From Thiomicrorhabdus arctica DSM 13458 (GTDB lineage: Bacteria > Pseudomonadota > Gammaproteobacteria > Thiomicrospirales > Thiomicrospiraceae): DNA of 64,000 nt. A model generated the notes under the pieces. That model was given only the letters and a program-made list of their open reading frames with translations. It had not been told where the DNA came from and did no database searches. Positions 42,801 to 63,890 of this stretch are shown in pieces (within the stretch, counting starts at the first letter, position 1; each line of letters starts with the position of its first letter). The DNA is taken from assembly GCF_000381085.1 (NCBI RefSeq), contig NZ_KB905899.1, forward strand, positions 372,001 through 436,000. The letters are read 5' to 3'. The position numbers were made by a program, and so were the translations under genes.

Positions 42801-42880
42801 GTTACTTTAACCCATTTTCTAGGGTGCTTGTGTACACAACTTCCTAGATATAGTGGCTTAAAAAGTTCGTTTTAAAGAAC

Positions 42881-42921
42881 AAAAAACCCGATTGACCAGG
42901 CATGGTCAATCGGGTTTTTTG
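42881..42921. terminator. Bidirectional terminator with near-perfect palindromic core
   Basis: An 18-bp perfect stem, AAAAAACCCGATTGACCA facing TGGTCAATCGGGTTTTTT, with a 4-nt GGCA loop. A-run on the left and T-run on the right serve the convergent ppiD and hflD. Its apex, ACCAGGCATGGT (42895-42906), is a one-mismatch copy of the recurrent palindrome. Confidence 0.92.
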
Positions 42922-43000
42922 TTGGCTTAAAGAAGGATAGGGTCTATAAACCTGTGCTTTAGTCGTTATCTAAATAGGGTATGTTTATGACGAGGCTAAC

Positions 43001-48133: not shown

Positions 48134-48184
48134 AAAAGCCCGCAAGCAGTTACCAGGTCTGGTAACTGCTTGCGGGCTTTTTTA
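48134..48184. terminator. Long terminator with palindromic core, icd/EamA convergent
   Basis: A perfect 22-bp arm (AAAGCCCGCAAGCAGTTACC and onward) folds around ACCAGGTCTGGT (48152-48163), a one-mismatch core copy, and ends in TTTTT. Left-hand A residues allow function on the minus strand too, ending the phosphonate operon. Confidence 0.92.
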
Positions 48185-56378: not shown

Positions 56379-57386
56379 TTAAAGTGTTTTGTTACGTAGC
56401 TTCTGTGAGAAAAATTCAAGCACGACTACTGTGATAAAAATGATTAATAAAATAGTGGCAACATGGTCGTAATCGAATAGATCCCAACGACCTTTTAGTT
56501 CCATACCAATCCCACCTGCGCCCACAATACCGAGCACAGTTGCTGTACGGATATTGCGTTCAAAAATATATTGAATATAAGCAATCCAGGCAGGTAATAC
56601 GTGTGGGAAGACCGCATAACGTAAAACTTTAAGTGAGTTAGCACCTGCTGAACTCAGCGCCATTTGCGGGCCTTTAGGCGCATTTTCAATTTCATCGGCA
56701 AAGAATTTACCTAATACCCCTGAGGTATGAATCGCTAATGCTAAGACACCCGCAATCGGACCAAAGCCATAGATAAGCACTAAAAATAGCGCCACAATCA
56801 GTTCAGGCATTGAGCGATGGAAGCTTAACCAACCACGTGCGATTTGATAAACAATCGGGTGTGGTGAGTAATTACGCGCCGCCAAAATACCTAAAGGCAA
56901 TGAGATAATGATAGAAATCATGGTGCCCCAGAAGCCCATTTCAATGGTTTCCCACATCATCCAAAGCACTTTTTTTAAGTAACCAATAGGTTCAACTAAG
57001 TATTCGGCTTTCTCTTCTGTCCAACTGTCGGTGTCTACATCATATTCACGAGAAACGCCTTCCTCGACATAAGAAAACCATGGTAAATGTTGTAGGTCAA
57101 CGCCTTCAAGACGGCTTAGTTCAGTACGAGCTGAAAACTGAATTGGAAAGGCTTGGCGACCAAACTTAGACACGCCATTTAATACATTAGAATCGCCAAT
57201 GCCTACGGCAGACAGAACGGCTTTACTTGTTTCGACAGCTGCTCTATCCATCTCGGTATTGTGTCCAGACCAAGCGAGGAGTACAAAGGCGAAAAATAAA
57301 AATAGGATGGTTTTTGGCGTAATCGCTTGATAGGTTTGCCATTCACGCCAATCACGTTTTTTATTGATTTGAGAGACTGTATTCAT
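56379..57386 (-). CDS. phnE: Phosphonate ABC transporter permease PhnE
   Basis: Inner-membrane permease of the phosphonate importer. The 335-residue protein has an N-terminal helix (about 27-42), a roughly 100-residue periplasmic segment, then five helices with the EAA-type loop SAGANSLKVLRYAVFPHVLP (about 245-264) that contacts PhnC. ATGA overlap with phnC. Confidence 0.95.
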   Translation of the reverse strand: MNTVSQINKKRDWREWQTYQAITPKTILFLFFAFVLLAWSGHNTEMDRAAVETSKAVLSAVGIGDSNVLNGVSKFGRQAFPIQFSARTELSRLEGVDLQHLPWFSYVEEGVSREYDVDTDSWTEEKAEYLVEPIGYLKKVLWMMWETIEMGFWGTMISIIISLPLGILAARNYSPHPIVYQIARGWLSFHRSMPELIVALFLVLIYGFGPIAGVLALAIHTSGVLGKFFADEIENAPKGPQMALSSAGANSLKVLRYAVFPHVLPAWIAYIQYIFERNIRTATVLGIVGAGGIGMELKGRWDLFDYDHVATILLIIFITVVVLEFFSQKLRNKTL

Positions 57387-58198
57387 GCGACGGCTTCCTT
57401 AATATCAACGAGGAGTGGTCGAGTTGGCTTTTCAACTGGTTCAGCCTGTTGTTTTTCTAAATTGTCATGCTCAATTTCATATAGTCTTCTTTGTACATCG
57501 GCATCCATGGCAGAAGGTGGGCCATCAAAAAAGACTTCGCCATCACGTAATGCAATGATTCGGTCAGCAAACTCTAAGGCATAGTCCATCTGATGCAAGG
57601 TACAAAGCACGGTTGCCCCATTAGTTTGAGCGGCTGTTTTAAGACTGTTTAACACGCTACGACTCATAGTAGGGTCTAAGCTGGCAACGGGTTCATCCGC
57701 TAATACCAATTTAGGGCTGGCCATAAATGCACGTGCAATGGCCACACGTTGTTGCTGTCCGCCTGAAAGTTCAGACGCGCGACGCATCAGATGTTTCTCT
57801 TTCAGGCCCACTTCGCTTAACAGTTCGTAAGCACGCCGTTGATCTTTAATAGGGAAAGACTTAACCATGCTTCGCCAGAATCCCGCTAAAGGTAAAATAC
57901 CGGTTAGCACATTGTGTAATACACTTAAACGCGGCACTAAATACAATTGTTGGTGAATCATGCTCACGCTACGCTGAATCATTTGTAGGTTTTTCTTAGT
58001 TAATAATTCACCGTCTAAAATGATCTTTCCAGAAGTCGGTTCAACTAAACCATTAACCATATTCATTAAGGTTGATTTACCCGCACCAGATGGCCCAAGC
58101 AGCACACAAAATTCGCCTTGTTTAAGCTGTACGGAAACATCTTTTACGGCCTGCGTCCCATCAGGGTAAATGCGGCTGACATGGTCAAAAATTAACAT
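57383..58198 (-). CDS. phnC: Phosphonate ABC transporter ATP-binding protein PhnC
   Basis: ATPase of the phosphonate importer. It has Walker A GPSGAGKST, signature LSGGQQQRVAIARAF and Walker B LVLADEPVASLD. The frame runs up to 58315 through the hairpin region, but the ATG at 58198 has GGAG 8 nt upstream and gives the family start MLIFDHVSRIYPDG; I use it. Three stem-loops separate it from phnD. Confidence 0.95.
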   Translation of the reverse strand: MLIFDHVSRIYPDGTQAVKDVSVQLKQGEFCVLLGPSGAGKSTLMNMVNGLVEPTSGKIILDGELLTKKNLQMIQRSVSMIHQQLYLVPRLSVLHNVLTGILPLAGFWRSMVKSFPIKDQRRAYELLSEVGLKEKHLMRRASELSGGQQQRVAIARAFMASPKLVLADEPVASLDPTMSRSVLNSLKTAAQTNGATVLCTLHQMDYALEFADRIIALRDGEVFFDGPPSAMDADVQRRLYEIEHDNLEKQQAEPVEKPTRPLLVDIKEAVA

Positions 58199-58218
58199 GG
58201 TTTTTTCTCCAAAAATAA

Positions 58219-58327
58219 AGATCTTTGCAAACTGACCTGGTAAAGCTGGTTTGCAAAGATCTCTTAAAAGCACCTCAAAAATTTGAGGTGCAATTAAAAT
58301 AGGTTGAGACCTCATGCAAAGGTCTCA
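58219..58327 (-). terminator. Three consecutive hairpins between phnD and phnC
   Basis: In transcription order: an 8-bp stem at 58327-58305 directly after the phnD stop; a 10-bp stem GCACCTCAAA/TTTGAGGTGC (58291-58270) followed by TTTT; and a 14-bp stem AGATCTTTGCAAAC/GTTTGCAAAGATCT (58262-58219) followed by TTTATTTTT. All are perfect inverted repeats. They look like successive partial terminators or 3' end stabilisers that favour phnD mRNA. Confidence 0.8.
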
Positions 58328-58336
58328 GATTAAAAA

Positions 58337-59254
58337 TTAACGCTGACCTGCTTTTTCAATCATTTCTGCTTTCACTGTATCTGTGACAGTATTTAGTTTT
58401 TTCAAAGCATCAAAGATTTTTTGCTCATCAAAGTGAGTGTCATAACGATCCACTTTTTTACCGCCGTAACCACGGATTTTTGAAGGGTCAATCTTGGTGT
58501 GAATTTCACCAAATGCTTTACGAAGTTCTGCTTTTAACTCAGACGTTAAACCTTTGTTCATGGCGAGAGGAGGGTTAGGGATTGGCTGAGACTTAGCTAA
58601 AGGCATAAATTTAGCTGGATCAATCGCGCCTTTTTTAGCGGCTTTAGCAAAAGAGTTATATGAAGAGGCTGCTGCATCTACTTTTCCTGCTGATAATGCG
58701 GCTAAAGAAGCTGAGTGAGAGCCTGAAATAATGACTTTCTTAAGGTCTTTAACAGGATCAACCTTGGCTGCAATTAACATGGCAACTGGGAAGTTGAATG
58801 AAGACGTTGAGTTTGGGCTACCGAATGCCATGCTTTTACCCTTAAGGTCTGAAAGCGTTTTGATGCCACTGTCTTTACGGACGAAAATACCAGAGTAGTA
58901 AGATGCGTCACCTTTTTTAACGTCAACCGCTAAAAGATCAACACCACATTTTTCGTTTGCTTGACCGTAAGTAACGGCACCAAACCAAGCGATATCCGCT
59001 TTATCGTTACACATACCTTCAACCACGGCCGCATAGCTTGCGCCTGCTTTTATATCAAAGTGAATGCCATAGTTATCCGTGATTCCTTGGAATACTGGGC
59101 CGTAATCTTTAGTGATATCGTTTGTGCCTGTATCAGCAGGAACCATAAGGACACGTAATGGATGCTCTTTTGATCCATCAGGAAGTGCGAAAGCGACTAG
59201 AGGCGTTAAAGTAACGGCTGTAACTGCTGCTAAGAACAAGTTCTTAAGTTTCAT
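58337..59254 (-). CDS. phnD: Phosphonate-binding periplasmic protein PhnD
   Basis: Solute-binding protein of the PhnCDE importer. The 305-residue protein has a signal peptide (about 1-23, ending AFA), the family core KAGASYAAVVEGMCNDKADI and WFGAVTYGQA. The phosphonate-binding segment GSPNSTSSFNFPVAML lies near residue 145. GGAGAAAGACC provides the ribosome-binding site. Confidence 0.95.
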   Translation of the reverse strand: MKLKNLFLAAVTAVTLTPLVAFALPDGSKEHPLRVLMVPADTGTNDITKDYGPVFQGITDNYGIHFDIKAGASYAAVVEGMCNDKADIAWFGAVTYGQANEKCGVDLLAVDVKKGDASYYSGIFVRKDSGIKTLSDLKGKSMAFGSPNSTSSFNFPVAMLIAAKVDPVKDLKKVIISGSHSASLAALSAGKVDAAASSYNSFAKAAKKGAIDPAKFMPLAKSQPIPNPPLAMNKGLTSELKAELRKAFGEIHTKIDPSKIRGYGGKKVDRYDTHFDEQKIFDALKKLNTVTDTVKAEMIEKAGQR

Positions 59255-59353
59255 TGGTCTTTCTCCAAAAATATAAAAAATAAAGTTAAAAAATTAAATA
59301 AAACGTTTAAACAATCCAGCCAAAAGAGTGATTAGACGGATTGCGTAAAGGTC

Positions 59354-60088
59354 TCAAGGTTGATTTTTAGGGTTCATTAAAATCTCAAGTTGAATCATGT
59401 CGGACCTAAACCGAGTGATGGAGTATTCGATTCTTCTGCCTGTTTTTGTATCTTCGTTAATTGTTTTCACTTTCAAGATAGGTTGGCTATTTGCCAAACC
59501 CAGTCTGAAACCGTCTTCTGCATTTGGCATTGCTGAAGAAACTAAGCTTGAAATTCTTTTTGCTTGAATGCCACACTCTGTTTTTAGAAATGCGCCTAAT
59601 GAACCCGATTCATATTTATCTAATGCCGTTGGGCAAATATCTTTTGGTAGAAAGTGGCTAATTAATGCGGCTGCTTTGCCTTCAACCTTTCTAAGCGTGT
59701 CAATTTGAAAGACTTCTTCGCCATTCTTTAATTGCAATTTTTCGGCAACCCCACCACAAGCGGCAATGACCTTTTTATCCCAAAGAATGCTTTCAACCTG
59801 TAAATTATTAGCCTCTACAGATTCCGTAAAACGCTCATAGCCTTTGATGCGGTAGGCCAATCTTTTTTCGGCAATAAAAGTGCCGAATCCATGACGTTTT
59901 TCTAAAATACCTTGCTTAACAAGCTCTTCAACCGCTCTGCGAACGGTGTGACGATTAACCCCAAATTTATCAGTCAGGATTTTTTCTGATAGATACAAAT
60001 CACCAGGCTCAAAGACATCTTGAATATCCGCCTCAATCGCATTGGCAATTTGTGTGTAAATTTTTTCTGGGCTGTATCGATCAATCAT
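59354..60088 (-). CDS. phnF: GntR/HutC-family transcriptional regulator PhnF
   Basis: Predicted repressor of the phn genes. The 244-residue protein has an N-terminal GntR winged helix (DKFGVNRHTVRRAVEELVKQ, about 36-55) and a C-terminal UTRA ligand-binding domain (GYERFTESVEANNLQ to the end). First gene of the locus, 99 bp before phnD. Two TGTCTA-type dyads immediately upstream suggest it controls itself and, by read-through, phnD. Confidence 0.9.
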   Translation of the reverse strand: MIDRYSPEKIYTQIANAIEADIQDVFEPGDLYLSEKILTDKFGVNRHTVRRAVEELVKQGILEKRHGFGTFIAEKRLAYRIKGYERFTESVEANNLQVESILWDKKVIAACGGVAEKLQLKNGEEVFQIDTLRKVEGKAAALISHFLPKDICPTALDKYESGSLGAFLKTECGIQAKRISSLVSSAMPNAEDGFRLGLANSQPILKVKTINEDTKTGRRIEYSITRFRSDMIQLEILMNPKNQP

Positions 60089-60094
60089 TTCACT

Positions 60095-60143
60095 TGTCTA
60101 GATGTCTAAAACTGTTGCTAAGTTTAGATAAGGTAAATGTCTA
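60095..60143 (-). promoter_or_regulatory. Candidate PhnF operators
   Basis: TGTCTAGATGTCTA at 60095-60108 and the spaced pair TTTAGATA (60123-60130) with TGTCTA (60138-60143) lie within 55 bp of the phnF start. HutC/PhnF-type regulators bind such short dyads. The match to TGTCTAGACA at 61377 supports a shared site. Confidence 0.5.
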
Positions 60144-60494
60144 CCAACGGTCAGTTTTGTGAAGGTTTTGTTGCGGATGTCGACATCCATCAAACAGTCA
60201 TCGTATGAAAGTAGTTGGATAAGGCGTTAAGAAGGTTTGAAAACAAATTGGGACAGGGTTATGCTTGACGCTAATTTACAATTAGATATTGAGTGGTGGG
60301 TGTATCGTGTTTTGATTAACAGACCGATATAGCTAAAAGCCCGCCACAAGTTACCATACCCTGTAAGAGAGTATAAATGCCTGGTAAGCGTGGTGTTTAT
60401 CCAGAGAAAAGGGGTTTGACGCCTTTTTTATAGTGTCAACTTGGATCGGCCGGATAATTAAACCGCCAAATGAATAGAGAGTGAGACTTAAAAC
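60144..60494. other. phnF/DNAJ-related divergent spacer
   Basis: Besides the operators, this spacer contains a broken copy of the terminator-type repeat: AAAAGCCCGCCACAAGTTACC at 60334-60354 with a partly matching right arm, GCCTGGTAAGCGTGG, at 60379-60393. No coding frame is convincing. Confidence 0.4.
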
Positions 60495-61179: not shown

Positions 61180-61228
61180 TAAAGCTCGCAAGAAGTGACC
61201 AGGCCTGGTTAGTTCTTGCGGGCTTTTT
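61180..61228 (+). terminator. Terminator with palindromic core after the DNAJ-related gene
   Basis: Imperfect long stem (AAAGCTCGCAAGAAGTGACC facing GGTTAGTTCTTGCGGGCTTT) around a perfect ACCAGGCCTGGT core, ending in TTTTTT. Confidence 0.88.
61198..61209. repeat. ACCAGGCCTGGT perfect core copy at terminator apex
   Basis: Apex of the terminator following the DNAJ-related gene. Confidence 0.8.
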
Positions 61229-63850: not shown

Positions 63851-63890
63851 AAAAGCCCGCAAGAAATGACCAGGCCTGGTCGTTTGGTAT
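63851..63890. repeat. Half terminator with perfect palindromic core
   Basis: AAAAGCCCGCAAGAAATGACC followed by a perfect ACCAGGCCTGGT (63869-63880). The right arm is missing: after GGTCGTTTGG the match to CTTGCGGGCTTTT is lost, so the hairpin has been broken. Confidence 0.7.

Follow-up and report, generated by a model that had tools for sequence, protein, structure and literature searches.

Three hairpins between phnD and phnC of a Thiomicrorhabdus-type C-P lyase operon: a putative 3'-protective block for the binding-protein message

The element that separates malE from malF in the malEFG operon of Escherichia coli is a REP sequence. Passages of one account (PMC5927463) give the malE message a half-life of 3.5 min versus 1 min for malFG, and describe stabilisation of other binding-protein mRNAs too; a REP at malE is also mentioned in an excerpt of PMC4942690. 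The other closely comparable systems are the internal terminators of cellulolytic Clostridia (Wu 2022, PMC9045158), where a stem-loop, often with a low-U tail, follows a binding-protein gene; that article also predicts at least 15 such stem-loops in E. coli.

The operon studied here lies in a 64,000-nucleotide stretch of contig NZ_KB905899.1 of Thiomicrorhabdus arctica DSM 13458 (the window). Its phnD-phnC gap resembles the malE-malF stabiliser, as portrayed in sections of PMC5927463, in that hairpins immediately follow the gene for the binding protein of an ABC importer, an arrangement from which an excess of binding protein would be expected. It differs in that the gap holds no REP-like repeat; it consists of one stem with paired changes and two hairpins with the ends of IS5-type MITEs, and is known here from sequence. 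Unlike the single, Northern-tested stem-loops of Wu 2022 (PMC9045158), it brings together three stems, all scoring below zero as terminators, in the C-P lyase operon of a proteobacterium. The principle of a hairpin block after a binding-protein gene is known, and MITE stubs in the place of REP elements would be new; a literature search for a stem-loop between phnD and phnC in phosphonate operons found none.

The gap is probably an intercistronic 3'-protective block, through which the phnD segment would outlive the segment from phnC onward and PhnD would be made in excess. The phn transcript would end, by cleavage or termination, at the hairpins or past them; the stems of the gap would block 3'-to-5' exonucleases; and the longer life of the phnD segment would lead to surplus binding protein, as happens with malE in the malEFG operon. 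Some leaky termination, at hairpin 2 and perhaps also hairpin 3, may contribute. RNA processing, stability and protein excess are what we infer for phnD, and the most likely effect of the hairpin block would be to raise phnD mRNA above that of the other operon genes.

The gap and its three hairpins

On the minus strand of the window, to which all features below belong, the operon runs phnF, phnD, phnC, phnE, phnG and then the remaining lyase genes. Located 5' of phnD, phnF (59354-60088) encodes a GntR-type regulator (TIGR02325, 195.8 bits, above cut-off). The product of phnD (58337-59254) is a PhnD-like binding protein of the phosphonate/phosphite type (TIGR01098, 187.2 bits, above cut-off), which in a profile search scores 185.7 bits against TIGR03431 PhnD, below the cut-off of 261.1. 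The transporter ATPase gene phnC (57383-58198; TIGR02315, 282.8 bits, above cut-off) has phnE and then the C-P lyase genes behind it. Few genomes hold a close PhnD relative: at E 1e-40, 4 of 62 in the family, 3 of 369 in the class and 8 of 398 in the phylum do (own genome included each time); the closest named loci by PhnD identity are L052, from a Thiomicrorhabdus MAG (95%), and L039, from a Thiomicrospira MAG (91%).

Between the phnD stop at 58337 and the phnC start at 58198 lie 138 nt, one fewer than the original prediction had counted. No other mapped junction of the operon is as long: 99 nt precede phnD, and the other genes overlap or are separated by 15 nt at most. A nearly identical leader, made up of a U-rich stretch and a Shine-Dalgarno sequence, precedes both phnD and phnC, that of phnC being at 58207-58220 (Shine-Dalgarno TTTATTTTTGGAG). 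A promoter search listed none within the gap, two 9-of-12 sites falling inside the end of phnD.

The three stem-loops of 8, 10 and 14 bp that had been predicted were all recovered in place by an inverted-repeat search of the gap. Hairpin 1, also present in the RNA fold, pairs 58305-58312 with 58320-58327 (8 bp) around a 7-nt loop. Hairpin 2 (58270-58291), of sequence GCACCTCAAA-TT-TTTGAGGTGC, pairs 58270-58279 with 58282-58291 (10 bp), and its 2-nt loop leaves 9 of the 10 bp paired in the computed fold. Hairpin 3 (58219-58262) pairs 58219-58232 with 58249-58262 (14 bp) around a 16-nt loop. The T-rich tracts said to follow two of the hairpins on the mRNA-like strand are found after hairpin 2 (TTTTAAG) and hairpin 3 (TTATTTTTGG), the latter running into the phnC Shine-Dalgarno sequence. 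The RNA fold of the gap reaches -54.6 kcal/mol, versus -24.9 +/- 3.5 for shuffled sequences (z -8.5), and none of 200 shuffles was as stable; as in stabilisers of the malE-malF type, a stable hairpin lies between the gene for the binding protein and the transporter gene that follows it. The gap as a whole does not recur elsewhere in its own genome (best other match, E 0.35 over 21 nt) and in this respect does not qualify as a REP element.

A regulated attenuator, or a site for a protein such as PhnF, could open phnC and the genes after it only when phosphonate is available, and a GAGACCTTTRC-like motif found here also begins the conserved phnF-phnD block. Such regulation is nevertheless very improbable: the computed fold consists of three separate hairpins with no competing pairing, the gap has no match in Rfam at gathering threshold, and the hairpin sequences vary between lineages. 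Two matches to known RNA families, at 24.3 and 20.6 bits, were rejected, their gathering scores being 48.7 and 50. The loop of hairpin 1 also contains an ATG that shares the phnC reading frame across the remaining hairpins (58199-58315, minus strand), probably by chance, because L052 reads ATA there.

The hairpins were aligned among the window, L052, L039 and a fourth locus, L106, with the tested structure taken from the window. In that order, hairpin 2 keeps 9, 9, 7 and 9 of 9 pairs, with two-sided changes at columns 53/67 (CG, AT) and 57/63 (AT, GT, GC); hairpin 2, with these paired changes among relatives in four sequences, looks like the older stem. Hairpin 3 keeps 15, 13, 15 and 13 of 15 pairs, with TA, TG and CG at 84/122; in L106 it has two mismatches and is missing from the minimum-energy fold. 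Its stem is kept in L052 and L039 while the third codon positions of phnD are 85% and 69% identical, respectively. Hairpin 1 is present in the window and L052 only; L039 and L106, which lack it in this alignment, are not letter-perfect empty sites, because the sequence around it differs as well.

Stems after phnD in other loci

Genes were mapped by tblastn in a comparative set of 40 loci, and folds were computed for all same-strand gaps of 25-400 nt and for their shuffled versions. The mapping left out L095 and L096 (the same places as L052 and L039) and L102-L104, and L106 stands outside the 40 loci; L081, L084 and L101 have no row for the gene next to phnD, and that of L085, at 3,161 nt, was excluded. 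A script picked the start codons, and in L098 and L105 at least they disagree with the record annotation.

A perfect stem of at least 8 bp is found in 19 of the 30 usable gaps after phnD (0.67 expected) versus a single one of the 52 junctions elsewhere (0.41 expected, with 60 shuffles per gap). Folds beaten by at most 2 of 200 shuffles occur in 16 of 30 gaps after phnD versus 5 of 52 others (Fisher p 2e-5, kinship ignored) and, among gaps of 40-140 nt only, in 16/28 versus 5/32 (p 9e-4, kinship again ignored); near relatives among the loci are L040/L045, L043/L044/L046, L082/L083, L092/L093 and window/L052/L039. The five significant folds at other junctions belong to phnF-phnD in the window, L052 and L039, to phnK-phnL in E. 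coli and to phnE-phnM in L105. In the other 14 of the 30 gaps after phnD, the fold is not significantly better than the shuffles.

Stems follow phnD in both the D-C-E and C-D-E gene orders, and 3 of 5 D-E gaps are significant; D-C stems number 15/25 or 16/25, because the stem was chosen differently in two analyses. The E. coli gap after phnD, which carries a REP element, has a significant fold and a 7-bp perfect stem. The hairpins recur in distant lineages, mostly with unrelated sequence; the stems of L042, L045, L047, L049, L051, L053, L080, L082, L097 and L098, for example, are unlike one another. Six of 32 phnD-phnC rows are shorter than 25 nt or overlapping (L048, L054, L055, L089, L091, L094), and seven longer gaps have no strong stem (L041, L050, L086, L088, L092, L093, L105); therefore, the hairpin is not required. 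If the protective reading is true, unrelated sequences have repeatedly given rise to the same expression device at one position of phosphonate operons.

The recurrence of stems after phnD and their rarity at other junctions leave graded expression with an excess of PhnD, as originally proposed, the best reading of the block, while the route to it through termination appears weak. Terminator scores were computed with a version of the d'Aubenton-Carafa formula, taking a single hairpin from each gap, trimmed to its perfect stem. Those of the window are -0.6 for hairpin 2 (borderline), -7.6 (or -18.0) for hairpin 3 and -53.0 for hairpin 1, and a terminator pattern scan of the gap flagged hairpin 1 only. 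Among the best hairpins after phnD, 1 of 30 is positive by this formula (L087, +48, with seven T) and 29 are negative, a tally that could miss a second hairpin in any gap.

The scores bear on the rival view that these are leaky intrinsic terminators, at which some polymerases would stop (at hairpin 2 or 3 in the window) and which would set the ratio by termination and not by decay. We consider this unlikely, though the likeliest of the alternatives. Stem-loops after binding-protein genes do terminate in Clostridia, some of them with few U: in Ruminiclostridium cellulolyticum, PMC9045158 reports termination efficiencies of 20.7-96.1%, with several low-U examples below 50%. The same paper reports that a stem stripped of its U tract did not terminate. 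Besides the borderline hairpin 2 of the window and the positive L087 hairpin, the short-stem reading of hairpin 2 in L106, with six T after it, scores +13.3; however, its long-stem reading falls to -16.8 and the pattern scan passed it over, and three T follow hairpin 2 in L052. The single positive score among 30 favours 3'-end protection of the malE-malF type over termination, and the property shared by the gaps is a strong stem and not a U-tail, which fits 3'-end protection as for malE and other binding-protein genes. Counting against a protective block in a gap, the portion of PMC5927463 that deals with E. coli places protective structures mostly within coding regions.

Mobile-element ends in hairpins 1 and 3

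Searched with up to one mismatch, the own genome contains GAGACCTTTGCA, a 12-mer of hairpin 1, at 33 places, 6 of them exact (reversed control, 9). Three GAGACCTTTGCA matches form inverted pairs about 150 bp apart, which are copies of a MITE of about 160 bp. At E 1e-6 or lower, this MITE occupies 9 places in its own genome (including, with GAGACCTTTGCA-like ends, G000:C4:151810-151969, C1:42304-42463, C1:732420-732578 and C1:1318489-1318646) and has matches in 35 of 62 family genomes; a family with such ends, end-only stubs among them, extends across Thiomicrospira relatives. The target duplication is 5 bp: an exact flanking 5-bp repeat accompanies 13 of 37 end pairs spaced at MITE distance, a set that includes doubtful pairings, and a 6-bp repeat none, versus 0.5% for flanks of different copies. 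Of the stub rows, 2/16 match over 5 bp, one being a T-run (control, 2.5%). The stub pattern GAGACCTTT-N2-32-GGTCTC, limited to a length of 17-47 nt, occurs at 43 sites in 16 of the 62 genomes (66 matches; 4 in the control), including hairpin 1, its sole match in its own genome, and hairpin 3 of L039. A near-stub at C1:1682763 has TTTAA on both sides.

Within hairpin 1, the element GAGACCTTTGCAT-GAGGTCTC (58306-58326) is read as an IS5-type MITE stub: its left end matches the terminal inverted repeat of the family at 12/12 positions, and its right end is GGTCTC. A putative 5-bp target duplication flanks it, the upstream copy (58327-58331) reading AATCT in the window and AACCT in L052, and the downstream copy (58301-58305) AACCT; read by eye, the repeat is exact in L052 and 4/5 in the window. 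Hairpin 1 is filed as a stub and not as a MITE copy because only 21 bp of the ~160-bp body remain. The arms of hairpin 3 are exact MITE/IS ends (GAGACCTTTGCAAAC) in L039 and carry one change each in the window; its flanks match at 2/5 and 1/5 bases (rows L153 and L164), and in the absence of a flanking repeat its origin from the MITE family is read from the end sequence.

Genome G007 contains a 1,244-bp IS that has such ends, matching at 12 and 11 of 12 positions, with an IS5-family transposase (NF033581, E 7.6e-78) and no exact 5-bp repeat. A search of the own genome for an autonomous IS gave no PF01609 match at 1e-5, and among 22 PF01609 matches in G016 none had both ends at IS distance in the loci examined. 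An excerpt of PMC4596501 gives the ISNme1 end as GAGACCTTTGCAAAA; the exact 12-mer terminates some MITE copies here as well as the G007 IS. GAGACCTTTGCA-like ends are common to the present MITE, ISNme1 and its proposed MITE ATR, and those of BrickBuilt are near-identical; the present MITE differs from all three in its 5-bp target duplication, ~160-bp body and end-only stubs. A literature search for the 12-mer returned 2 papers, and one for MITEs with Thiomicrospira-type names gave no title on this family among the matches listed.

The block looks composite by origin: hairpin 2 seems to be an old stem, hairpin 3 a palindrome, likewise old, that has MITE-type ends, and hairpin 1 a MITE stub inserted later. 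The MITE and its stubs are so widespread in the family that hairpins 1 and 3 could be neutral debris, tolerated in gaps and without effect on expression. Of 20 examined stub sites, none falls within a predicted ORF; 18 could be classified, and 12 of these lie between same-strand genes, possibly mere background; a passive relic suits hairpin 1 as well as a protective block does. We judge this improbable for the block, however, as the hairpin 3 stem is kept in L052 and L039 despite the third-position divergence of phnD, other loci have stems of different origin in this position, and hairpin 2 is left unexplained.

Returning to the protective block, we tentatively propose that end-only IS5-type MITE stubs, made by repeated internal deletion, might constitute a micro-palindrome class among relatives of Thiomicrospira, recruited in the manner of enterobacterial REP elements to cap binding-protein messages; the phn gap would then combine an older stem with two stubs, one of them recent and the other domesticated. 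If so, it offers a traceable case of mobile-element ends turning into mRNA hairpins, with sisters that have no stub, a recent stub or an older conserved stem.

Terminator repeats and conserved blocks near phnF

A link of the hairpins to a repeat family had been suggested through a degenerate core in the last loop. The core is there (ACCAGGTCA, 58233-58241), so that the loop of hairpin 3 shares bases with palindromic terminator repeats of the window, but it is not kept in L052 or L039; the resemblance of hairpins 1 and 3 is to IS5-type MITE ends and not to the terminator repeats. With one mismatch allowed, ACCAGGTCA is not clearly enriched (15 versus 9.6 +/- 3.6; 8 of 100 shuffles had as many). 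Hairpin 3 was rejected as an ACCAGG-centre palindromic terminator repeat, its CCCGCAAG..CTTGCGGG stem being absent and the centre lost in L052 and L039.

Self-comparison of the window places the palindromic repeats, which resemble bidirectional terminators and have a ACCAGGYCTGGT-like centre, at 48134-48181 and 61181-61227, with partial matches at 63851-63881 and, weakly, 60335-60366; another palindrome lies at 42878-42923. L052 has a similar repeat upstream of phnF.

Between phnF and phnD, a hairpin-capable block of 56 nt (59299-59354, minus strand) is identical in the window, L052 and L039 and has 4 differences in L106, while the third codon positions of phnD are 67-85% identical. Its 5' end (GAGACCTTTAC) resembles a MITE end. 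The block may be an operator, a promoter or a leader RNA; a search for plasmid relatives of the phnF-phnD gap found none. The end of the same block, with a phn operon near the Thiomicrorhabdus one, also occurs in L041, a contig labelled Methyloprofundus, and would be either mis-binned or transferred. Directly 5' of phnF (about 60089-60150, minus strand), CTAAAC..GTTTTAG followed by TCTAGACAA is common, with small changes, to the window, L052, L039 and L107 and is a candidate PhnF operator.
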